DNA of 23,294 nucleotides from a virus. Below, in pieces: positions 3,337 to 22,054 of the stretch. Below the pieces are notes generated by a model, which was not told the DNA's origin, made no database searches, and saw only the letters and a list, made by a program, of their open reading frames with translations. The stretch is from positions 1 through 23,294 of the IMG/VR virus record IMGVR_UViG_3300047548_000560. One strand, given 5' to 3'. The position numbers and the translations under genes were made by a program. The first letter of the stretch is position 1, and each line of letters opens with the position of its first letter.

Positions 3337-3989
3337 TAGTCCGTAATAACGTAAACACTATTCGCGAGGAGTTTAAGTGGCTCCTCGCGAATGAATTTTA
3401 TGAAGAAGATAAATCTGGTGTTAAGCTACTAGAGATAGTAAATGCTTCTTTCGTGGCAGACGAACCTTCTATCTTTGGTAAACCTAATCATTCTTACATT
3501 GAGCGTGAGATTGAGTGGTACAAATCAATGTCCCTCAATGTCAACGATATCCCGGGCGAGACACCAGCTGTCTGGAAACAAGTTGCTACACCGGATGGAC
3601 GCATTAACTCTAACTACGGGTGGTGTATCTGGTCACGAGAAAACGGTGAGCAATACAACAACGTCTTACGTGAACTCAGACAGAAGCCTACTTCTAGACG
3701 AGCCACTATGATCTATACACGACCAAGTATGTGGGTAGACTATAGTCGCGACGGTATGTCTGATTTTATGTGTACAAACGCGGTACAATATGTTATAAGA
3801 GATCAAGCATTACACGCTATCGTTCAGATGCGTAGTAACGATGTTTTCTATGGTTACAGGAATGACTTCGCTTGGAATGAATACGTACTAAAGATACTAG
3901 CGTCAGACTTAGACGTCTCTCCGGGTCTTATTCACTGGAACGTCGGGTCCCTTCACGTCTATGAACGAAACTTTAACCTGGTGAAATGA
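3333..3989 (+). CDS. gp42: Deoxycytidylate 5-hydroxymethylase (T4 gp42-like)
   Basis: A 218-residue protein that follows T4 gp42 closely: IVNASFVADEPSIFG, DIPGETPAVWKQVA, INSNYGWCIWS, SRRATMIYTRPSMWVDY, DGMSDFMCTNAVQYVIRD and HWNVGSLHVYERNF all have direct T4 counterparts. gp42 belongs to the thymidylate synthase family and uses methylene-tetrahydrofolate to make 5-hydroxymethyl-dCMP. The nucleophile is Cys147. Asp178 stands where thymidylate synthases have Asn, the residue that gives cytosine rather than uracil preference in T4. The C-terminus is about 28 residues shorter than T4 gp42. The start is GTG (3333-3335), overlapping the preceding stop. The protein predicts hydroxymethylcytosine-containing phage DNA. 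Confidence 0.93.
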   Translation: MIVRNNVNTIREEFKWLLANEFYEEDKSGVKLLEIVNASFVADEPSIFGKPNHSYIEREIEWYKSMSLNVNDIPGETPAVWKQVATPDGRINSNYGWCIWSRENGEQYNNVLRELRQKPTSRRATMIYTRPSMWVDYSRDGMSDFMCTNAVQYVIRDQALHAIVQMRSNDVFYGYRNDFAWNEYVLKILASDLDVSPGLIHWNVGSLHVYERNFNLVK

Positions 3990-4429
3990 TGAGCGACAAG
4001 TGGCACGATAATTTCTTGAAGATGGCTGAGCATATTTCCGGTTGGTCTAAAGATCCTTCTACAAAGATCGGAGCAGTGGCAGTCGGTGATCGTCGACAGA
4101 TACTAGCCACCGGTTACAATGGTTTCCCACGTGGGATCAAAGACTATCGAGACAGGCTAGAGACTCGTGAGACCAAGTATAAGTTCATGGTTCATGGTGA
4201 GATGAATTGTATTTATAACGCGACTCTCAACGGTGTCAGTCTCAACGGTGCTGACTTATACGTTCACGGTCTGCCCGTTTGTTCTGAGTGTGCGAAGGGT
4301 ATCATCCAAGTCGGTATTAAGCGTGTATTCATGCGTTACCCCGATGAAGTCTCTCAGAAGTGGCTAGGCATGGGCCTAGAGACTAAGGAGATGTTCGCAG
4401 AAGCTGGTGTAGAGTTAAATAAACTATGA
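3986..4429 (+). CDS. cd: dCMP deaminase
   Basis: A 147-residue zinc-dependent deaminase. His70 and Glu72 (VHGEMN) with Cys99 and Cys102 (PVCSEC) form the zinc site and proton shuttle; SKDPSTKIGAVAVG and ATGYNGFPRG are the substrate-side motifs of dCMP deaminases. It converts dCMP to dUMP, balancing pyrimidine pools for dTTP synthesis, and so competes with the hydroxymethylase next door for dCMP. It overlaps the hydroxymethylase by four bases (ATGA) and the next gene by four, so translation is probably coupled. Two ATGs in tandem are available for the start. Confidence 0.93.
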   Translation: MMSDKWHDNFLKMAEHISGWSKDPSTKIGAVAVGDRRQILATGYNGFPRGIKDYRDRLETRETKYKFMVHGEMNCIYNATLNGVSLNGADLYVHGLPVCSECAKGIIQVGIKRVFMRYPDEVSQKWLGMGLETKEMFAEAGVELNKL

Positions 4430-6834: not shown

Positions 6835-7131
6835 ATGATTGACATGAGTAATAAAATAGTGTATAAATATAATGAGGATCAGATTATTGCTGACTTTAAA
6901 GCCTATATTGATAGGACATATGGTGAGCATTACAAGGCTGAAGACCTAGAGACATTTGATGTCTGGGAAGCCATGGGCACTGCTTCTACTACTTGCAGAG
7001 ACACAGCTATCAAGTATCTCATGCGTTACGGCAAAAAGAACGGTAAGAATAAAGATGACTTGATGAAGACTCTTCATTACGTTCTTCTTTGTCTTCATAT
7101 TGAACATTACAAGAACAAGGTAAATACATAA
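6835..7131 (+). CDS. DUF3310-like small protein
   Basis: A helical protein of about 98 residues. TYGEHYK, then DVWEAMG, then AIKYLMRYGKKNGKNKDDLMKTLHYVLL matches the pattern of phage DUF3310 (SaV-like) proteins, sometimes loosely annotated as nucleotide kinases without proof. Possible starts are GTG 6829, ATG 6832, 6835 and 6844; I prefer 6835 because AAGG at 6826-6829 is then five bases away. It ends with TAATG, sharing a base with the next start. Its function is unknown; it lies at the end of the modification run. Confidence 0.65.
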   Translation: MIDMSNKIVYKYNEDQIIADFKAYIDRTYGEHYKAEDLETFDVWEAMGTASTTCRDTAIKYLMRYGKKNGKNKDDLMKTLHYVLLCLHIEHYKNKVNT

Positions 7132-7976
7132 TGGAAATTAAAATTGAAATGGATGTACTAAGGAAGCGTAAGCTCTTCCTTGCAGCCCCAATGTATGGCG
7201 GGATGTGTGCAGGTATGTTTGCCAAGTCAACTGCCGATCTAACAGCAATGTTTGCAGCAAATGGTCTAGAACTTCGATCATATTTTCTTTTTAACGAGTC
7301 TCTCATTACTCGTGCTAGAAACTATTGCGTTGATGAGTTTATGCGATCTGATTGCACTCATATGATGTTTATCGATTCAGACATTGGGTTTGATCCACGA
7401 GACATCGTCGCCATGATGGCACTCATGTCAGATGACTCTGAGTATGATGTACTAGCAGGACCATATCCAAAGAAGACTATTTCTTGGGAAAAGATTAAAC
7501 TAGCAGTCGATAAGGGTATTGCAGACGACGACGCTAACGTGCTTGAAAAGTACGTTGGGGATTATGTCTTTAATCCTAAAGCTGGTAACGGAACTATTCG
7601 TATCGATGAACCAGTTGAGGTGTCTGAAGTTGGTACTGGTTTCATGATGACACGACGTTCTGCTTTCGAAAAGTTTGCGGTCGCTTACCCAGAATATTCT
7701 TATAAGCCAGACCATGTTCGAACAGAACATTTTGATGGTTCACGCGAGATCATGCAATACTTCCAGGCTGAGATTGACCCAGTATCTAAGCGGTATCTCT
7801 CGGAAGACTATTGGTTCTGTCAAAAGCTAAGTCAAGCCGGTGGAAAGATTTGGTATTGCCCTTGGATGCGTCTGCAGCATGTTGGTACCTATATCTTTGG
7901 TGGATCACTAGCGGATCTAGCATCAATCGGTGCCCCTGCTACTGCAGACCCAGCGATGTTAAAGAAGAATAAGTAA
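7131..7976 (+). CDS. GT-A glycosyltransferase (GT2-like)
   Basis: A 281-residue protein of the phage GT-A glycosyltransferase type: a first strand KLFLAAPMYGG, an LITRARNYCVDEF helix, the metal- and sugar-nucleotide-binding DxD at Asp82-Asp84 (FIDSDIGFDP), the acceptor-side VGTGFMMTRR, and SEDYWFCQKLSQAGGKIW, where Glu-Asp supplies the usual catalytic base. It starts on the stop of the preceding gene (TAATG). It is the second glycosyltransferase within 3 kb of the dCMP hydroxymethylase. It might extend or replace the sugar on modified bases, or act on a phage structural protein or host glycan; the sequence does not decide. Confidence 0.82.
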   Translation: MEIKIEMDVLRKRKLFLAAPMYGGMCAGMFAKSTADLTAMFAANGLELRSYFLFNESLITRARNYCVDEFMRSDCTHMMFIDSDIGFDPRDIVAMMALMSDDSEYDVLAGPYPKKTISWEKIKLAVDKGIADDDANVLEKYVGDYVFNPKAGNGTIRIDEPVEVSEVGTGFMMTRRSAFEKFAVAYPEYSYKPDHVRTEHFDGSREIMQYFQAEIDPVSKRYLSEDYWFCQKLSQAGGKIWYCPWMRLQHVGTYIFGGSLADLASIGAPATADPAMLKKNK

Positions 7977-8608: not shown

Positions 8609-9262
8609 ATGAAGCTAAGTGCACGGACTATCAATATTCTAAAGAACTTCAGTACAATCAACCCATCGATCGTACTGAAGCCAGGTAACACGGTAGCGAC
8701 TATTTCTACCAACAAAACTATCATGGCTCGAGCCACAGTCCCCGATGAGTTTACTAACGTTATCGCGATCTATAACCTAGCGCGATTCATCTCGACTATG
8801 TCTCTCTTTCAAGACCCGGAACTCGATTTTGGTACTAATGCGGTTCGTATCTCGTCTGGTAACAAGAGCAACACGTATCACTACGCGGATCCGTCAGTCA
8901 TTCTCGCTCCACCCGAGAAAGAAATCAAGCTACCGACCATCGACGTCGATTGCTTCTTGACTAACAAGGACATCCAAGACGTGACTAAGGCTATGAACGT
9001 CCTTGGTCTGCCAGAACTAGCTGTAGTCGGTGACGGCACTAACGTCATGCTTCAGGCCATCGACGTTAAGAACCCATCTGCGGATGAATATAGCATCGTT
9101 GTGGCTGAGACTGATAAGACTTTCCGCGCGGTGTTCCGTGCCGAGAACCTCAAGCTAATGGATGGTGACTATCAGCTTACTATTTCTTCTAAGGGTATCT
9201 CTCAGTTTACCGGCACTGAAGCCACGTATTGGATCGCGGTGGAAGCTTCTTCTACTTTTTGA
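8609..9262 (+). CDS. gp45: DNA polymerase sliding clamp gp45
   Basis: A 217-residue protein that matches T4 gp45 (228 residues). The start MKLSARTINILKNFSTINPS parallels T4 MKLSKDTTALLKNFATINSG, and AIYNLARFISTMSL, ADPSVILAPP and the C-terminal EATYWIAVEASS have direct counterparts. gp45 forms the trimeric processivity ring and in T4 also activates late transcription. AAAGGAG at 8589-8595 is 13 bases from the ATG, an unusually long gap; in T4 the gp45 start region is a RegA operator, and regA is present in this cluster, so the initiation region may be regulated. It heads the replisome block 45-44-62-regA. Confidence 0.92.
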   Translation: MKLSARTINILKNFSTINPSIVLKPGNTVATISTNKTIMARATVPDEFTNVIAIYNLARFISTMSLFQDPELDFGTNAVRISSGNKSNTYHYADPSVILAPPEKEIKLPTIDVDCFLTNKDIQDVTKAMNVLGLPELAVVGDGTNVMLQAIDVKNPSADEYSIVVAETDKTFRAVFRAENLKLMDGDYQLTISSKGISQFTGTEATYWIAVEASSTF

Positions 9263-11883: not shown

Positions 11884-12339
11884 ATGACTAAGCAGTACGA
11901 AATCTCTATCGGTTGTGACCACGCCGGGCTTGAACTAGCTAGACAGCTATCAGCTTGGCTCTTTGACGTGGGTCACACTATCTATACTTTCTTTCCAGAA
12001 GAAAAGTCTAAAGTGGACTATCCCGATTACGCTTACAAGACGTGTTCATCCGTGACACTGAGTTCACATACGGTGTCTCGTGGTATCTTGGTCTGCGGGT
12101 CCGGCGTGGGTATGTCTATCGCTGCGAATCGATTCAAGGGCATCCGGTGTGTACTGGCTTCTGATCCTTATGTAGCTGAGATGTCTCGTCGACACAATGA
12201 CACTAATGTCATCGCTCTCGGTGCTAGAGTCATCGGTTCAGACATGGCGGTAGCTTGTATAGAATCGTTCTTAAACACTTCTTACGAGGGTGGTCGCCAC
12301 GAGCAACGAGTGATGAAACTATTTAACATGAAAGATTGA
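11884..12339 (+). CDS. rpiB: Ribose-5-phosphate isomerase B
   Basis: A 151-residue protein of the RpiB/LacAB family, near full length. Seen: GCDHAG near the N-terminus (catalytic-site Asp-His), YPDYA, ILVCGSGVGMSIAANR with the active-site Cys, SRRHNDTNVIALGARVIG with the phosphate/ring-opening His, and YEGGRHEQRV. All key residues of E. coli RpiB are present, apart from a conservative Thr-to-Ser in CGTG. It interconverts ribose-5-phosphate and ribulose-5-phosphate, supplying ribose for nucleotide synthesis. In a phage this is an auxiliary metabolic gene, plausibly boosting dNTP supply. It overlaps pstS by one base. Confidence 0.93.
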   Translation: MTKQYEISIGCDHAGLELARQLSAWLFDVGHTIYTFFPEEKSKVDYPDYAYKTCSSVTLSSHTVSRGILVCGSGVGMSIAANRFKGIRCVLASDPYVAEMSRRHNDTNVIALGARVIGSDMAVACIESFLNTSYEGGRHEQRVMKLFNMKD

Positions 12340-13310
12340 TGATGAAATTTGTATACGGACTACTAGCAGCTACTATCTTTACTTCTGTGTCTCAAGCACA
12401 GACCATCACCGGGGCGGGTGCTACTTTTCCAGCACCAGTCTATAGCAAGTGGGCAGAAGCGTCTAAGAAAGATGGGTTCTCTGTAAACTACCAATCGGTG
12501 GGATCTGGTGCTGGACAGACACAGATCATCAATCGAACCGTTGACTTTGGTGCTTCTGACGCTCCACTCGATAAGAACAGGCTAGATACTAACAAGCTGA
12601 TTCAGGTGCCATCAGTTATGGGGTCTATCACCATCGTAGTAAACATCCCGGGTGTAACTAGTGATAAGCTAAATCTCTCTGGTCCTGTCATCGTAGACAT
12701 CTTTAGGGGCGTTATTAATAGGTGGAATCATCCTGCTATCGCGGCCGATAACCCTGGCTTGACTCTCCCAAACATCGCCATCAGTCCCATCTATCGCGCC
12801 GATGGTTCTGGTACGACGCATGTCTTTACTAGTTGGTTAGCTACACAGAGTCAAGAGTGGAAAGATGTTGGCACTTCAGTAAAATGGTCTGCCGGTATGG
12901 GTGCTAGGGGTAACGAGGGAATCTCGGCTTTTGTTAAGCGAGTTAATGGTTCCATTGGCTATGTGGAAAGTGCTTATGTAAAAGCAAATGGTCTAACATC
13001 AACTAATCTTAAAACATCTACAGGCAAGTGGGTATCGGCAAATCCTAATAATTTTGCTGCAGCTGCAGCAAAAACCGAATGGACTGAAAATAACGAATCA
13101 CTTGGACTAAACACCAGTTGTGATACGTGTTATCCGATCTTATCAGCCACTTACGTCCTCATCCCTAGGGACGGAAAGAATAAGAACAATGTAGAAAAGT
13201 GGCTAAAGTGGGCATATGATAACGGAGACGAGATTGCGTCTTCTTTACATTACGTTCCTCTTCCTCGAGGAGTCAAAGATCGAGTGATCAAGACACTCAA
13301 TACTGATTGA
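12339..13310 (+). CDS. pstS: PstS-like periplasmic phosphate-binding protein
   Basis: About 323 residues. Start at ATG 12339 (TGATG overlap with rpiB); ATG 12342 and TTG 12336 are alternatives. A signal peptide (MMKFVYGLLAATIFTSVSQAQ, cleavage near AQA) is followed by ITGAGATFPAPVYSKW, YQSVGSGAGQTQI, DFGASDAPL, YRADGSGTTHVFTSWL and MGARGNEGISAFV, the ordered phosphate-contact motifs of PstS. It would work in the host periplasm with the host PstCAB importer; no permease is encoded nearby. Marine phages often carry pstS, where it is thought to relieve phosphate limitation during DNA synthesis. The last codon's stop is part of the next promoter's -35. Confidence 0.93.
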   Translation: MMKFVYGLLAATIFTSVSQAQTITGAGATFPAPVYSKWAEASKKDGFSVNYQSVGSGAGQTQIINRTVDFGASDAPLDKNRLDTNKLIQVPSVMGSITIVVNIPGVTSDKLNLSGPVIVDIFRGVINRWNHPAIAADNPGLTLPNIAISPIYRADGSGTTHVFTSWLATQSQEWKDVGTSVKWSAGMGARGNEGISAFVKRVNGSIGYVESAYVKANGLTSTNLKTSTGKWVSANPNNFAAAAAKTEWTENNESLGLNTSCDTCYPILSATYVLIPRDGKNKNNVEKWLKWAYDNGDEIASSLHYVPLPRGVKDRVIKTLNTD

Positions 13311-14864: not shown

Positions 14865-15463
14865 TGTTATCTTGTGCTGTAGCTCTTATATTGTTAGTAG
14901 ATGTTTCTGGTTCTATATCAGATGAAAATTACAAGTTACAGAGACAAGGTATAGTACAAGCATTTGAAGATCAATCAGTGAGAAATACTATTAAAGCGCA
15001 ACCTGGTGGGGTTGCGCTTTCTTTGTTAGAATGGTCGAGTAATGTTAGGGTAACTGTACCATGGAGAGTGGTTAAGACAAACTCTGATATAGAAAAATTC
15101 TCTCAAGACATATTAGAAGCTCCAAGATCATCATCTAATCTGACTGCTTTAGGACACGCTTTGAATAAAGCTATAGAATACATGGAAGAAGTTCCATGTG
15201 ATCCAGAGTCAAAAATTATTGATGTATCAGGTGATGGTCCATCTAATGAAAAAGAAGAACCTGATGAACCAAGAAATAAAGCTATAACAGAAGGTATAGT
15301 TATCAATGGTTTACCAATCATAACAATTGTTTATCCAGAAATAGTAGATTACTATAAAGAAAAAGTCATAACACCAAATGGCTTCTTAGTAGAAGCCACC
15401 GATTTTGAAGATTTTGCAAAAGCTATAAGAAGAAAAATAATACTAGAGATAGCTAAGTACTAA
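14864..15463 (+). CDS. DUF1194-like VWA protein
   Basis: A 199-residue VWA domain of the DUF1194 kind. Pattern seen: LLVDVSGSISDENYKLQRQG, VALSLLEWSSNVRVTVPW, SSNLTALGHALNKAIEYM, IIDVSGDGPSNE, ITEGIVINGLPI, and a tail FEDFAKAIRRKIILEIA. The MIDAS residues DxSxS, Thr and Asp are kept. The family is, to my knowledge, mainly alphaproteobacterial and usually has a signal peptide; here only a short hydrophobic start (MLSCAVALILL) precedes the domain, merging with its first strand. Function of the family is unknown. The gene is AT-rich and ends beside a convergent operon. A phage copy probably came from a host. Confidence 0.82.
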   Translation: MLSCAVALILLVDVSGSISDENYKLQRQGIVQAFEDQSVRNTIKAQPGGVALSLLEWSSNVRVTVPWRVVKTNSDIEKFSQDILEAPRSSSNLTALGHALNKAIEYMEEVPCDPESKIIDVSGDGPSNEKEEPDEPRNKAITEGIVINGLPIITIVYPEIVDYYKEKVITPNGFLVEATDFEDFAKAIRRKIILEIAKY

Positions 15464-16080: not shown

Positions 16081-17346
16081 CTATGTCTCCATGTTTTCTC
16101 TGTCACAAACGAAAGCAGTGACTGCTACGTTTCCATAAACATGACTAGCGGTACGAATCATATCCATTATAGGATCTACAGCTATTAATAATACAATAAT
16201 AGCTTCATGTGGTAGTTGCAACAAGTCACACACTATACTCACTGTAGCCACCGTTAATACACCAGTAGTGCCAGCACTAGCTAAACCAGCTAGTATGGCA
16301 CCAAATAACACCATTGATAGAGCTATCCATGTTAAACTTATCCCATAGATGTTTGCTATGAATAATGTAGCTATGGCATAATAAGTTATAGATCCAATCC
16401 TATTAACTGTAAAGCTTAATGGAACCATTAATTCGACAGAACCTCTGTCGAACTTAAGCTTAGTCAATGCTTCTTGCGCATATGGTATGCACGCAAGACT
16501 ACTTCTAGATGATATAGCTACTATTACTGTGTCTTTTACTGATAAGAGTATAGAAAATATAGATGTTCCTCTGCATCTTAATGCAATGACAATAGTAGCT
16601 ATAATCAATATAGCTAAACCGCCAAGAGCTTGTTGAATTATAAATTCAAGCAAAGTTTCAAAAATAGATAAACCAACTTTACCAACTTGACTTGAAATCA
16701 TAGCTAATAAAGCAAATGGTAAAAAGTAATTTAAAAATTTAAATATGCTTATTGAAGCATTTTGTATAGCTTGCAGAGCACTGACTATAATAGTCATACC
16801 TTCATTTTTTAGTTGCCCGAGGGCAATGCCAAAGATTAAGCAGAATACAACTACCTTTAAACTCTCTCCAGTATTCAGACTCTGAAAGATATTTTCTGGT
16901 ATGAATTTAGTGTAGATAGAAGGACCATCATCTTTCTTTTCTTCTTTATCTTTATGTAATGCAATTTCTAAATCGACTGCTCCTTGGTCTCTGTCAGTGA
17001 CTAGAGATCCCATTTTTGCTTGTTTTTCTGGTGTCATATCTGATGAAGTCAACATCACTGTTCCAACACCAACGCTTGAAGCTAAAATCATAGATAATAT
17101 GAAACCAAATATGATCCGCTTAATCATTCCAGCGGCATCATCTTTTTGTAGTAAACTTATGATGCCAACAAGTATAGTGGCTAATAAGAATGGTAAGACT
17201 ACTACTTTTAATAGACTAAGGTAAATTAAACCGACATCTTCAAATTCTATGCTTTCAGCAGGAAAATAAAATCCAAATGCTACACCAGCTACTATAGCAC
17301 TTAATACAGTAAACGGATTAGTCAGAATTTTTTTTAACATATTCAT
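16081..17346 (-). CDS. SDF-family (dicarboxylate/amino acid:cation) symporter with altered cation sites
   Basis: A 421-residue multi-spanning inner-membrane protein. Start at 17346 because AAGGAA sits seven bases upstream; it lies four bases after the binding protein's stop. The SDF signature is clear: a Ser-rich ISSRSSLACIP hairpin, TVNRIGS where the family has NMDGT, the AGLASAGTTGV hairpin, and DPIMDMIRTASHVYGN. By GltPh numbering, D394, R397 and T398, which hold the substrate, are kept, while D312 is Ile, M311 Arg, N401 His and D405 Asn, removing sodium ligands. It should import an acidic amino acid or dicarboxylate with changed coupling. Such a transporter in a phage is unusual. Confidence 0.88.
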   Translation of the reverse strand: MNMLKKILTNPFTVLSAIVAGVAFGFYFPAESIEFEDVGLIYLSLLKVVVLPFLLATILVGIISLLQKDDAAGMIKRIIFGFILSMILASSVGVGTVMLTSSDMTPEKQAKMGSLVTDRDQGAVDLEIALHKDKEEKKDDGPSIYTKFIPENIFQSLNTGESLKVVVFCLIFGIALGQLKNEGMTIIVSALQAIQNASISIFKFLNYFLPFALLAMISSQVGKVGLSIFETLLEFIIQQALGGLAILIIATIVIALRCRGTSIFSILLSVKDTVIVAISSRSSLACIPYAQEALTKLKFDRGSVELMVPLSFTVNRIGSITYYAIATLFIANIYGISLTWIALSMVLFGAILAGLASAGTTGVLTVATVSIVCDLLQLPHEAIIVLLIAVDPIMDMIRTASHVYGNVAVTAFVCDRENMET

Positions 17347-17350
17347 CTGA

Positions 17351-18166
17351 CTATTCCTTGTTATTATCATAATATTTCTTTAACATAGAAAGAAGATTCT
17401 TAACTTCTATGTTATTATAGTCATTTTTTATAACATGATCTATTATAGTGAGTAAATGTGTGCTATTTGGAGGAACAGCTGCAGCTATATTATCTACAGA
17501 ATCGGTAAACACGACTGTTTTAGTATGAATGGATGCTGTTGGTTTTTCCATAGTTAAACGTTTTATTTCAAATTCATCTCTAAAACCAGCTGAGTATTTT
17601 CCCGATATAACACCATTAACTATGTTATCCCAACTAGTCTCTGGACTGTATATTGCTCTAGGAAAAGAAGTACGAGCAAACGTATCATAACTAGAATTAG
17701 CTATAAAAGATATTGATCCATTAAAAGTTTTTATAGTAGTTTCTTGATCACCATTCTTGGTGTTTTGGCTTAACCATAGACGATTAACTATCATTGCCTG
17801 ATGTAGTCTTACGTATGGTGTAGAAAACTTGACTACATTCATTCTTGGACCAGTTATTGACAATTTGCTAATAGCCATGTCAGCTTTGCCAGATACTATT
17901 TGATCTATAACACCTGCAAACGAAGTAGCGTCCCTGTTAAACACAACAGGGACGCCAAGAATCTTAGCTACTTTTTTAGCAATATCAACATCTAAGCCAG
18001 TCATATTATTGATAGTCCCGCCATAAAATGGTGGTGTATCAAAAGCAGTCATGGCTACTATAAGCTTATCTCTCTGTTTTATTTCTGCTATATCTGGTGG
18101 ATACACAGTTTGTGCATGCGCTTTAAAGCAGAATAAAAAGAGTATAAGAAACAAAAAAGCTTTCAT
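17351..18166 (-). CDS. Periplasmic amino-acid-binding protein (SBP family 3)
   Basis: A 271-residue family 3 solute-binding protein. A signal peptide (MKAFLFLILFLFCFKAHAQ) precedes two lobes: KLIVAMTAFDTPPFYGG, GLDVDIAKKVAKILGVPVVF, SGKADMAISKLSITGPRMNVVKFSTPYV with the ligand-carboxylate Arg108, and in lobe 2 SGKYSAGFRDEFEIKR with an Asp at the usual amino-group position. It should bind an amino acid in the host periplasm. No ABC permease is present; instead it is cotranscribed with an SDF symporter. Its start codon lies in the stem of the hairpin at 18152-18223, and its first codons (ATG AAA GCT TTT TTG) form that hairpin's T-run. Confidence 0.92.
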   Translation of the reverse strand: MKAFLFLILFLFCFKAHAQTVYPPDIAEIKQRDKLIVAMTAFDTPPFYGGTINNMTGLDVDIAKKVAKILGVPVVFNRDATSFAGVIDQIVSGKADMAISKLSITGPRMNVVKFSTPYVRLHQAMIVNRLWLSQNTKNGDQETTIKTFNGSISFIANSSYDTFARTSFPRAIYSPETSWDNIVNGVISGKYSAGFRDEFEIKRLTMEKPTASIHTKTVVFTDSVDNIAAAVPPNSTHLLTIIDHVIKNDYNNIEVKNLLSMLKKYYDNNKE

Positions 18167-18223
18167 CTCTCTGTATACCCTTGTTGTTTAGGGTATTTAT
18201 TAACAGAGAGATGAAAGTTTTTT
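18154..18223. terminator. Bidirectional terminator-like hairpin overlapping a start codon
   Basis: Left arm CTTTCATCTCTCTGT (18160-18174) pairs with ACAGAGAGATGAAAG (18203-18217); inside it ATACCC (18175-18180) pairs with GGGTAT (18191-18196) around a 10-base loop, leaving TTATTA as a bulge. It is flanked by AAAAAA (left) and TTTTTT (right), so either strand ends in a T-run. It serves the 18222-18503 gene on the minus strand and includes the ATG and ribosome-binding region of the downstream binding-protein gene. Confidence 0.85.
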
Positions 18224-18503
18224 AGTACTCAGAAATATGATAATTAATCATAATGTTAGTATCATTTGGATACTTAGCTAGAATTTCTTTACGCAAGTCA
18301 CTCTTAGCTTGTTCTACTTCACGACTAGTAGACTTTGATGCATACACACTTGTCTTTAACTGTGGGTAAGTAGTCTTTTTATAAGGGATAGCTGTGACTT
18401 CAAACTTTTTAAGATTCTTTGAGTTCTTACGAAGCTGCGTGAAGTAACCGTATGGCTTATTGTTCCAGATGTCTTCTAGTTCTTCTCTAGATAGTTTGAG
18501 CAT
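18222..18503 (-). CDS. Small basic protein of unknown function
   Basis: A 93-residue Lys-rich protein (MLKLSREELEDIWNNKPYGY start, then KNSKNLKKFEVTAIPYKK). It starts 11 bases after the SWIM protein's stop, with AAGGAAA upstream of the ATG. Its TAA stop lies in the T-run of the hairpin at 18154-18223, so the transcript probably ends there. No family recognised. The two Lys/Arg-rich patches suggest nucleic-acid binding, which is inference. Confidence 0.72.
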   Translation of the reverse strand: MLKLSREELEDIWNNKPYGYFTQLRKNSKNLKKFEVTAIPYKKTTYPQLKTSVYASKSTSREVEQAKSDLRKEILAKYPNDTNIMINYHISEY

Positions 18504-18514
18504 GTAAGTTTTCC

Positions 18515-18880
18515 TTATACATTAATGACGTGTTTACAGCTACGACGAAAAGAGAAGCCCGCACAGGTACACGTCTTCTTAGCACCGTCAATAGTCACGG
18601 TGTATGAAGCACCCTTCGAGCCTGGGACTCGAATGACTCGAGGAGAGTCAGCTAACTTCTGCTTAAACTCTACGCTCTTATCGTCAATCTTCACGACGTG
18701 ATGCTTGGGGAATATACGCATCTTTGCTGGCAGTTCGGGCGCCGAGATGCAGACTGAGTCCCGTTCTACCCAGGAGGGTAGTGGGAGAGGGTCACCATAG
18801 AACACGTCGAACTCATCTATGTGAAACTGATAGATGTGTCGCTTGTCGTACATCGGGTTACGCACTACGTAACGCATCAT
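18515..18880 (-). CDS. SWIM zinc-finger protein
   Basis: A 121-residue protein whose C-terminus has the SWIM motif CxC-xn-CxH: CTCAGFSFRRSCKH (near 105-118), preceded by the usual strand pair SYTVTIDGAKKT. SWIM domains bind zinc and mediate DNA or protein contacts. The N-terminal ~80 residues (RHIYQFHIDEFDVFYGDPLPLPSW, KMRIFPKHHVVKID) are not recognised. The start overlaps the stop of the tiny membrane gene upstream (ATGA); a second ATG follows directly. Confidence 0.82.
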   Translation of the reverse strand: MMRYVVRNPMYDKRHIYQFHIDEFDVFYGDPLPLPSWVERDSVCISAPELPAKMRIFPKHHVVKIDDKSVEFKQKLADSPRVIRVPGSKGASYTVTIDGAKKTCTCAGFSFRRSCKHVINV

Positions 18881-18975
18881 AACACCAACAACAAGTATAT
18901 CGTCATGAAAATGATAGCTAAGATCACAGCGTCGACTATGATCTTAACGACTTTCTTGCTAGAAGTCGTAGGCAT
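18877..18975 (-). CDS. Tiny single-helix membrane protein
   Basis: A 32-residue frame: a short polar lead (MPTTSSKKVVK), then one hydrophobic helix (IIVDAVILAIIFMTIYLLLVL). It overlaps the end of the preceding gene and shares ATGA with the SWIM gene. GGAG lies about ten bases upstream of the ATG. Overlap on both sides and a clean transmembrane pattern favour a real gene, but the size keeps confidence moderate. Confidence 0.5.
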   Translation of the reverse strand: MPTTSSKKVVKIIVDAVILAIIFMTIYLLLVL

Positions 18976-19132
18976 GCTTGATGCACTCCATCTCAGCCAG
19001 CTGTCGGTCCTGCCGATCCAGGTAGTCGTTGTACTCCGTCACGATCTCAGCGACTTCGGCGTTGGTCAGACGGCGACCAGCAACGGTCTCGGCCCAACGG
19101 CGTTCCAGGTTAGAGATTTGGTAGGTACCCAT
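18959..19132 (-). CDS. Small acidic helical protein, first gene of the leftward operon
   Basis: A 57-residue protein (MGTYQISNLERRWAETVAGR start, then LTNAEVAEIVTEYNDYLDR), probably a helical pair. GAGG lies about seven bases upstream of the ATG and a TTGACA/TATAAG promoter sits 30 bases further out, so this is the first gene of the leftward transcript that runs on into the SWIM gene. Family not recognised. Confidence 0.7.
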   Translation of the reverse strand: MGTYQISNLERRWAETVAGRRLTNAEVAEIVTEYNDYLDRQDRQLAEMECIKHAYDF

Positions 19133-19161
19133 GGGTTGTCCTCACGATTGGTTATATCTAT

Positions 19162-19190
19162 CTTATACCCCATCTCGAAAAATATGTCAA
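19162..19190 (-). promoter_or_regulatory. Leftward sigma70-like promoter
   Basis: On the minus strand: TTGACA (19190-19185), a 17-base spacer and TATAAG (19167-19162), about 30 bases before the 57-residue gene. It is the mirror partner of the rightward promoter at 19478-19506. Confidence 0.78.
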
Positions 19191-19202
19191 CCACCTTATG
19201 CG

Positions 19203-19213
19203 TCAATGGGTTA
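19203..19213 (-). repeat. Inverted partial copy of the 19.3-kb repeat
   Basis: TCAATGGGTTA is the reverse complement of TAACCCATTGA, the core of the repeats at 19306, 19341 and 19456. It sits just outside the leftward promoter. Confidence 0.6.
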
Positions 19214-19305
19214 CGTCAGAAGTGGCCAGAAACCACCCTAGGCTTTGCTGGTCATAGGGAAACCCAGCGATCGTGGCTTAGGCTGCCCAGAAGCCCCGTC
19301 TCGGC

Positions 19306-19328
19306 CTAACCCATTGATATGATTGAGT
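19306..19328 (+). repeat. Repeat copy 1 (CTAACCCATTGATATGATTG + AGT)
   Basis: A 23-base unit identical to copy 3 at 19456-19478. Copy 2 starts 35 bases later. The unit with its left neighbour (TCGGC) also has an exact inverted match at 19431-19447. Confidence 0.85.
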
Positions 19329-19340
19329 CTGGTCAGAAGC

Positions 19341-19363
19341 CCAACCCATTGATATGATTCAGT
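19341..19363 (+). repeat. Repeat copy 2
   Basis: CCAACCCATTGATATGATTC followed by AGT: the same unit with two changes relative to copies 1 and 3. Confidence 0.82.
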
Positions 19364-19430
19364 TTGTACGTTAAATCAGCCACGGGACGAAAAAAGTTTG
19401 ACCACCATCAAAAAAATTTTGTGTTTGGAA

Positions 19431-19447
19431 TCAATGGGTTAGGCCGA
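19431..19447 (-). repeat. Inverted repeat copy
   Basis: TCAATGGGTTAGGCCGA is the exact reverse complement of 19301-19317, giving a 17-base inverted pair separated by 113 bases. Confidence 0.82.
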
Positions 19448-19455
19448 CTAATACC

Positions 19456-19478
19456 CTAACCCATTGATATGATTGAGT
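19456..19478 (+). repeat. Repeat copy 3, abutting the rightward promoter
   Basis: Identical to copy 1. Its last base is the first T of the TTGACA at 19478-19483, so a protein bound here would contact RNA polymerase. Confidence 0.85.
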
Positions 19479-19506
19479 TGACATTTTTATGATAGTGAGA
19501 TATATA
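19478..19506 (+). promoter_or_regulatory. Rightward sigma70-like promoter
   Basis: TTGACA (19478-19483), a 17-base spacer and TATATA (19501-19506), about 30 bases before the SprT-like gene, whose ATG has GAGGAG seven bases upstream. The rest of the gene-free stretch 19133-19535 holds only the leftward promoter and the repeats listed here; I see no gene in it. Confidence 0.8.
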
Positions 19507-19535
19507 TATCTTACGATGAATGACTGAGGAGTCTG

Positions 19536-19991
19536 ATGCGAGTCAGCGTACACAAACCACCCCCGTGGCTAGACCGAGCTGAGCTCGTGGCAGCGGCGAA
19601 GTTCTACGCTTCGGTGCTTATATCGTCGCGGTTGGCTAAAAACATCGAGGTCAAGATCTGTTTCGAGAAAACGAGCCTGGACGGTTCGTGTGCTGCGGAA
19701 GAGTTCGATAGACCACGTGAGTTCACGATCTATCTGAACGTGAAACATAAGACGCGTAAGACACTCATCTCTCTCGCTCACGAGATGGTTCACGTCAAGC
19801 AGTACGCCACGGGCGAGCTCCGTGACTACGTACGCTCGACGTCACTGAACCGTTGGCGTGGCGAGATGATCGACGAGGAGAAGATCAGTTACTGGGATCG
19901 ACCCTGGGAGGTCGAGGCGTTCGGACGCGAGTTCGGTCTCTACGCCAGGTTCAAGGAGAGCACACATGAAAAGAAAGCCCGTAAGACGTAA
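19536..19991 (+). CDS. SprT-like zinc metalloprotease
   Basis: A 151-residue protein with the SprT/SprT-like signature: SLAHEMVHVKQY, HExxH at 82-86, followed by a later acidic segment (PWEVEAFGREFGLY) that can supply the third zinc ligand. EFTIYLNV is the strand before the active-site helix. SprT-like domains in eukaryotes (Spartan) cut DNA-protein crosslinks; the phage role is unknown. The gene is GC-richer than the AT-rich region to its left. It opens the rightward operon behind the repeat-flanked promoter. Confidence 0.85.
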   Translation: MRVSVHKPPPWLDRAELVAAAKFYASVLISSRLAKNIEVKICFEKTSLDGSCAAEEFDRPREFTIYLNVKHKTRKTLISLAHEMVHVKQYATGELRDYVRSTSLNRWRGEMIDEEKISYWDRPWEVEAFGREFGLYARFKESTHEKKARKT

Positions 19992-21642: not shown

Positions 21643-21669
21643 AAAAGGAGCCAAACGGCTCCTTTTTTT
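21643..21669. terminator. Rho-independent terminator, two-way
   Basis: AAAAGGAGCC, loop AAAC, GGCTCC then seven T. The A-run on the left makes it work for the convergent speD transcript too; the last bases overlap the speD stop. Confidence 0.92.
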
Positions 21670-22054
21670 ATGTCATTTCTAGTGTATGAATAACACCTCT
21701 GAGTCTTAAATCTGTTTTAACGTGTGTCGGATTAAAAAATTTATTCAAAGAAAGTATAGCATCTTCAGGGTTACACGTCCCACATACAAAAATATCAAGT
21801 GCGATGAAACCTTCTTCTACCCAATGATGCCATGTACAATGAGATTCAGCCAAAATAACTGCGCCACTAGAACCACCATTATTAAATTCATGAGCATGAG
21901 AAAATAATACTGTAGCTCCTATATCAGTACAGACTTGCTCCAGTCTAGTTCTTATAGACTCTGTAGTGTGCACATTTAGGCATCCATATAAGTCAATTAA
22001 TAGATGTCTACCGGCATAAGTCATATCATTTTCTTGAATGAATCCAACCATCAC
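21668..22054 (-). CDS. speD: S-adenosylmethionine decarboxylase proenzyme
   Basis: A 128-residue class 1b SpeD. Seen: GRHLLIDLYGC, GATVLFSHAHEF, GSSGAVILAESHCTWHHW, GFIALDIFVCGTC. The self-cleavage site is Glu70-Ser71, Ser71 becoming the pyruvoyl group; His76 and Cys91 keep the spacing of the processing and catalytic residues in the T. maritima enzyme. It makes decarboxylated S-adenosylmethionine for spermidine synthesis; polyamines help neutralise packaged DNA. Start: GTG 22054 is eight bases from AGGGGA (22068-22063); ATG 22051 is the alternative. A spermidine synthase is not in the window, so host SpeE or a distant gene is needed. Convergent with the upstream operon. Confidence 0.93.
   Translation of the reverse strand: MMVGFIQENDMTYAGRHLLIDLYGCLNVHTTESIRTRLEQVCTDIGATVLFSHAHEFNNGGSSGAVILAESHCTWHHWVEEGFIALDIFVCGTCNPEDAILSLNKFFNPTHVKTDLRLRGVIHTLEMT

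Follow-up and report, generated by a model that had tools for sequence, protein, structure and literature searches.

A gene-free stretch of 403 bp (19133-19535) in the window, which is the whole 23,294-bp virus record analysed here, is probably a cis-regulatory module in which two strong outward sigma70-type promoters share boxes for one sequence-specific DNA-binding protein and are folded together, as judged from the sequence. Five copies of one asymmetric 21-bp box were found in it (19196-19506 including promoters). The boxes hold a fixed place relative to the -35 elements and their spacings are helically quantised. The spacing steps, mostly whole turns, point to a putative folded protein-DNA switch and not to a chance repeat.

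The five-box array and the phage that carries it

From left to right the elements are the leftward promoter, box a (-), box b (+), box c (+), box d (-), box e (+) and the rightward promoter. The intervals are 35 bp between b and c, 88 bp between c and d, which holds two A-tracts, and 27 bp between d and e. The elements and the first gene of each operon are as follows.

18959-19132, minus strand: 57-aa hypothetical gene, first of the leftward operon (ORF; no family above cut-off)
19162-19167, minus strand: -10 of the leftward promoter, TATAAG (sequence)
19185-19190, minus strand: -35 of the leftward promoter, TTGACA, 17-bp spacer (sequence; scored strong via the near-identical contig G009)
19196-19216, minus strand: box a, ACGTAACCCATTGACGCATAA, 3' half degenerate, core 12 bp upstream of the leftward -35 (pattern search)
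19305-19325, plus strand: box b (R1), CCTAACCCATTGATATGATTG (repeat search, matrix scan)
19340-19360, plus strand: box c (R2), CCCAACCCATTGATATGATTC, 35 bp from box b (repeat search, matrix scan)
19385-19423, no strand: A-tract stretch between the inner pair and the promoter pair, with counterpart A-tracts in other arrays (sequence, alignment)
19424-19444, minus strand: box d (R3), GCCTAACCCATTGATTCCAAA, inverted, 88 bp from box c (repeat search, spacings)
19455-19475, plus strand: box e (R4), CCTAACCCATTGATATGATTG, 27 bp from box d, core end 10 bp before the rightward -35 (repeat search, spacings)
19478-19483, plus strand: -35 of the rightward promoter, TTGACA (sequence)
19501-19506, plus strand: -10 of the rightward promoter, TATATA, 17-bp spacer (sequence)
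19536-19991, plus strand: 151-aa metalloprotease-like gene (HEMVH), first of the rightward operon (phrog_10499, 2.2e-23)

The three direct copies described in the earlier note were located at 19304-19331, 19339-19366 and 19454-19481, as were its exact inverted copy, seen as an 18-nt inverted pair (19301-19318/19430-19447), and its second, shorter inverted copy, which is the fifth box (core 19203-19212). Two of the direct copies had been given as identical; plus-strand copies 1 and 3 are the same over 21 bp and copy 2 deviates at both ends. Flanking pieces common to copies 1 and 2 were also recovered, with CAGAAGCC preceding both, and copy 3, said to touch the rightward -35, abuts it. We add that the left inverted copy adjoins the leftward -35 with a 12-bp gap. 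A credible gene is absent from 19133-19535, where the overlapping ORF 18821-19309 looks spurious, in agreement with the gene-free 400 bases first described. The opposite TTGACA promoters were found as claimed (leftward 19190-19185 with TATAAG at 19167-19162; rightward 19478-19483 with TATATA at 19501-19506), both with 17-bp spacers. These two promoters, and those across the module family, have the sigma70 features of TTGACA, a spacer of 16-18 bp and a TATAAT-like -10.

The repeat was observed far more often than in shuffled sequence. With up to 3 mismatches AACCCATTGATATGATT has 4 matches in the window, one of which (15316) is a 3-mismatch match within a gene, against a shuffle mean of 0.09, and 0 of 100 shuffles reach 4. 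With up to 1 mismatch AACCCATTGA has 9 matches against a shuffle mean of 1.52, a count reached by no shuffle; five of the nine are exact and every one of these lies inside 19203-19467. A box-like pair (TATCAATGGTTTA and its neighbour; matrix scores 13.6 and 12.6) was also noticed within a gene at 15301-15332 and is probably due to chance.

The window encodes relatives of gp45, gp44 and RegA; of the T4 replication core, family matches cover RegA, the lid of gp44 and the C-terminal domain of gp45. Judged by gp44, its closest relatives in culture are Stenotrophomonas phage DLP6 (59.5%) and Methylophilales phage Melnitz (57%). These families and relatives assign the window to the T4 superfamily, as part of a phage genome. 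Megablast of the window against the phage collection gave no matching record, and a distant search of that collection with the array gave only six weak matches (E about 5). Over its last 5.7 kb the window is 99.98-100% identical to the 44.3-kb contig G009, which carries exactly the same array. The HEMVH gene is a homologue of DLP6 AAY80_057 (36.6% identity), and its Pfam metallopeptidase matches are below cut-off.

Other features were noticed around the array. A conserved, ACTATGATGAATGAGG-like leader lies beside the start sites at 19507-19535 and in other modules, and several DLP6 leaders are similar (GTGATGAATGAGG). A sodium:dicarboxylate symporter (PF00375) adjoins a solute-binding protein (PF00497) at 16081-18166 (-) in this phage, and further host-like metabolic genes are a PBP_like_2 protein (12336-13310), RpiB (11884-12339) and a SAM decarboxylase (21668-22054). 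Between two leftward genes, 18151-18226 holds a 24-bp inverted repeat (92% complementary, 28-bp loop) that is a possible terminator or processing hairpin.

Recurrence, common plan and spacing of the module

Exact copies of the 17-base core were found in 32 viral-contig stretches, and copies with up to 3 mismatches in 26 of the 30 records tested, many of which were picked for having the core. In 25 records picked for the box or the array, AACCCATTGA was found 108 times and the backward pattern 0 times. A matrix scan of all records gave 283 sites, training arrays and near-duplicates counted in, against 35 in the reversed-sequence control. A chance repeat was ruled out by the shuffles together with these reversed-pattern and reversed-sequence controls. 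The module is about 300-400 bp in size and recurs within genomes, with two to three full modules per 44-61 kb. There are three in G003 (60.9 kb; at 8.6, 24.7 and 41.7 kb), two in G009 (33.8 and 42.5 kb), two in G011 (9.5 and 17.7 kb) and two in G041 (8.6 and 23.8 kb). The three modules of G003 share only 60-68% identity. The earlier note had named units scattered without link to promoters as the outcome that would speak against its reading; searched for in the contigs of relatives, such scatter was not observed and the boxes were promoter-linked. Greedy ORF calls, which are unreliable and missed the window's own junction, placed the array at 4 of 86 divergent junctions, a count left out of the assessment. 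A subgroup, G004/L126 and G016/L127, with 12 exact cores per 20 kb, is characterised by lone boxes dispersed among single promoters, each immediately ahead of the -35; G004 and G016 are without the full module layout.

Occurrence in bacteria or prophages was rejected on a single scan of genome contigs, which gave 15 stretches that, by spacing, are mostly tandem repeats of period 12, 18 or 36; two of them with spacing 34 (L175 and L177) were read by eye and contain no promoter module, and the other 13 were judged by spacing alone. Nine viral contigs with similar cores (L145, L147, L155, L156 and L158-L162, of which L147 and L155 were read) were set aside as outside the box family. Some of these hold arrays of their own. 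Dense arrays of a different repeat, TCAATGGGTT, with 16 and 14 cores (up to 1 mismatch) in about 550 bp, occur at L155 6431-6980 and L158 4822-5387; these viral contigs have a GC content of 57%, and the arrays, outside the box family, look like an iteron or repressor array. In the AT-rich viral contigs L145, L147 and L161 (e.g. L147 10274-10375) three direct AACCCATTGA repeats are spaced 43 and 34 bp; the L147 repeat is TAACCCATTGATTCACCG, and this kind of array, too, is unrelated to the box family.

The consensus of 96 collected sites is SCTAACCCATTGAwawsATT, in which the TTGA and AA columns are partly forced because relaxed sites had to contain them. Fifteen distinct arrays, aligned with near-identical copies left out, follow a common plan of L1(-), L2(+), A-tracts, L3(-), a centre of about 100 bp, R1(+), R2(+), A-tracts, R3(-) and R4(+), where L1 and R4 abut the outward -35 boxes. 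Inspection by eye shows a canonical TTGAC box facing outward on the left of all arrays but one, which has the variant TTTACT (14 of 15), and on the right of all but L136, which has none (14 of 15). In L121 and L123:9699 the right promoter is without R3/R4, and the window array is a reduced version without L1 and L2.

Spacings were measured in 18 arrays, where the boxes of an inverted pair stand 16 or 27 bp from each other, the R2-R3 gap is 88/89, 99-101 or 109/110, and the L2-L3 gap is 63-65 or 53/56. The phase coherence at 10.5-11 bp was matched by 0 or 1 of 2000 jittered sets, and the L3-R1 spacing (97/98 or 104-106) was observed not to be quantised. The test covered arrays other than near-identical duplicates, those with 45-bp pairs (G012/G015, G058/G055, G024) and those whose boxes are weak (G051/G046/G057, G053). 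A direct pair of 35 bp is present in 18 of 18 by construction, because the arrays were picked by it; the pair measures 45 bp in the diverged G012/G015 and G058/G055 and 25-26 bp in DLP6, and these spacings differ by steps of about one helical turn. Without selection for the face of the helix it would be difficult to account for one-turn gaps across poorly conserved DNA.

A proximal box was found at 26 of the 184 distinct strong promoters of the array contigs, in a single orientation throughout. Its core ends 10 bp (15 promoters) or 11 bp (11 promoters) before the -35 in 26 of 26, and 23 second boxes, inverted, end 26/27 bp (11) or 37/38 bp (12) before it; these spacing counts are not independent events because the sequences are related. 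The leftward promoter of the window is not among the 26 because box a falls below the score threshold. Since the other 158 of the 184 strong promoters are without a proximal box, the box is not required for promoter strength.

The boxes of phage DLP6 and the candidate binders

The window-family matrix detects 18 sites in 150 kb of DLP6 and 0 in the reversed sequence, compared with 2 and 5 in Melnitz-3. The DLP6 box reads AATCAACGACTTA on the coding strand and occurs mostly in pairs 25-26 bp apart. At 13 DLP6 promoters the end of the proximal box lies 33/34, 43/44 or 54 bp before a TATAAT-like -10, with a coherence of 0.975 at 10.5 bp that was reached by 0 of 5000 nulls. As in the window, the promoter at boxes 34653-34727 has the opposite box orientation, directly before the -35. 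The DLP6 paper lists 25 repeated motifs obtained via PHIRE, 22 of them in pairs before gene clusters, and calls them 'phage promoters' (PMC5349666, main text). The gene clusters named there for the motifs largely fit the places of the boxes. Therefore, as far as these named clusters allow, the published logo being a figure, the 25 'phage promoters' are probably these boxes.

Two kinds of binder were considered. The reverse complement of every box family reads ATCAA-N4-TTR or nearly so, where most boxes of the window family have TGGG as N4, diverged arrays TGGT, secondary boxes CCAC or TCAC and DLP6 CGAC. The boxes may be bound, as the asymmetric stoperators of mycobacteriophages are, by an activator or repressor that the phage encodes or brings in its virion, or by a host factor other than IHF, and this binder would co-evolve with N4; we see this as a serious possibility, somewhat short of an even chance. 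A factor of this kind would fit a constraint that spans the whole box, N4 included, a box sequence that varies among phage lineages, and boxes that are carried by only some promoters. Against it, a search for a phage-encoded regulator among genes common to DLP6 and the array contigs gave no obvious candidate: when ORFs from 150 of the 168 kb of DLP6 were compared with these contigs, which as fragments make the comparison weak, no common gene was an obvious DNA-binding regulator.

The other candidate is host IHF, an architectural protein that the phage would borrow for bending its divergent promoters upon DNA entry. The IHF consensus given in PMC8942017 is WATCAANNNNTTR; a table in PMC6907758 lists WATCAANNNNTTR under H-NS and a different motif under IHF, and we take these rows as swapped. 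Four of the five window boxes match this consensus and box a misses it. The whole window has 5 matches, a count reached by 3 of 100 shuffles. IHF would account for an ATCAA-N4-TTR frame that is constant although N4 varies between families (TGGG, TGGT, CCAC, CGAC). A T-run at box positions 20-22 (52, 61 and 50 of 96 sites) sits where the lambda H' site has its A-tract. DLP6 is enriched 32 to 1 for WATCAANNNNTTR over the reversed pattern, compared with 11 to 13 in Melnitz-3. However, the bare consensus is also mildly enriched in Cr30 (28 to 11), C48C1 (21 to 5) and S-SSM4 (20 to 5), phages not scanned for a box family, so counts of the bare consensus are a weak test. A phage HU/IHF gene (PF00216) was found over cut-off in 0 of 29 and 0 of 20 phage records, where DLP6 is complete and the metagenomic ones are fragments; the single match below cut-off is in G044.

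Several observations do not suit IHF. An IHF site should not need a constrained N4, yet N4 shows a base preference: it is CCCA in 122 of 224 distinct matches and, in DLP6, CGAC, CCAC or GGAC (NNAC) in 30 of the 32 matches. About a third of the boxes have TTTCAA and not WATCAA (A at position 10 in 31 of 96). An IHF footprint is about 35 bp, and a DLP6 pair spaced by 25 bp seems to leave too little room for two of them. IHF is thus the best single named candidate, because its frame is found in every family and no phage HU/IHF gene was found over cut-off, and it is a candidate rather than an established binder because N4 is constrained. Given an N4 that is restricted inside each phage, TTTCAA in one box of three and closely set pairs in DLP6, we consider IHF about as likely as a dedicated phage or host factor, both somewhat short of an even chance.

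Function and comparison with known systems

Strong sigma70 promoters, boxes fixed on both sides, their single reuse in G004/G016 and their pairing in DLP6 argue for a role of the boxes in the control of (probably early) transcription; activation, repression and timing would look alike in sequence. In the mechanism that we propose, the candidate binder would sit on the boxes at a fixed face of the helix and bend the DNA jointly with the A-tracts, the module would fold into one nucleoprotein complex, and this complex would activate, or time, both promoters early in infection. More tentatively, phages of the lineage may set up, at several loci of each genome, a phase-locked hub with at most 7-8 boxes. 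Host IHF, or an IHF-like protein of added specificity, would there fold a pair of divergent early promoters, and the hub may also serve as a transcription-primed origin.

The earlier note had read the binding-site array as either a transcription switch or a replication origin. The switch was favoured by the box fixed to the -35 in 26 of 26 promoters and by the quantised spacings, and the origin gained no positive support. As an origin, or a promoter combined with one, the module would use the boxes as initiator sites, the A-tracts as an unwinding element and the divergent transcripts as primers, in line with boxes in both orientations, A-tracts and helical phasing. A strong central dyad was also found in 4 of 21 module centres folded (L117, L137, G051 and G024; z -4.6 to -6.0, with shuffles that preserve single-base and not dinucleotide content). 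In the window itself the centre is without a dyad (z 0.1), and with 4 of 21 strong the dyad was rejected as a general feature of the module. T4-like phages can use several origins. Even so, we regard an origin as unlikely, because in relatives the boxes occur singly or in pairs at many promoters, namely the solo boxes at single promoters of G004/G016 and more than a dozen unidirectional DLP6 promoters, and modules occur several times per genome. The GC skew of the window, a check suggested by the earlier note, tracks gene strand. A selfish repeat or functionless duplication by chance, which similar copies at several loci might suggest, is hardly credible: at a median identity of 60% between arrays, the box cores and their phase are still conserved, and the place relative to the -35 is fixed.

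Near-perfect dyads with arms of about 18-24 bp were noticed mid-module in L117 (about 8705-8790), L240 (about 3935-4020) and L141 (about 7088-7160), and are decayed or missing in other modules, the window included. Such a dyad would act as DNA because the transcripts run outward.

Early promoters of T4-type phages are usually presented as strong sigma70 promoters that stand alone. In the literature on T4-like early promoters and their motifs across the T4 superfamily, IHF in lytic phages, UP elements, the IHF consensus, and IHF spacing and footprint, most subscription journals lying outside the search, we found no such module described. The present lineage, found in many metagenomes, appears to equip some of these promoters with a phase-locked control module of several sites. 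The module offers an explanation for the motif published for the cultured phage DLP6, and it would be an in-vitro-testable case of phage promoter geometry that evolves mostly by whole helical turns.

The DLP6 motif is the closest likeness, as a repeated asymmetric box, mostly paired, upstream of gene clusters in a T4-superfamily relative, with an ATCAA-N4-TTA frame as in the window family and a quantised distance to the promoter. It differs in its N4 (CGAC) and in having direct pairs on one side of single promoters, without a divergent 400-bp array. Its authors took the motif itself as the promoter, and 'IHF' occurs 0 times in the main text (PMC5349666). Mycobacteriophage operators and stoperators are likewise many genome-wide copies of an asymmetric site, bound at early promoters, and PMC9283540 describes stoperators as also stopping elongation and serving the immunity of temperate phages. 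In contrast, the boxes described here are promoter-bound and phased, and without a known repressor. IHF-dependent phage control regions, such as lambda attP and pL and the Mu early promoter/enhancer, share an IHF-type consensus, bending, several sites and an A-tract, whereas the present boxes have a constrained N4, stricter spacing and a place directly at the -35. Iteron and palindrome origins have direct and inverted repeats, A/T-rich tracts and sometimes a central dyad, all of which recall the present arrays, but the modules here are multi-copy per genome and tied to promoter geometry.
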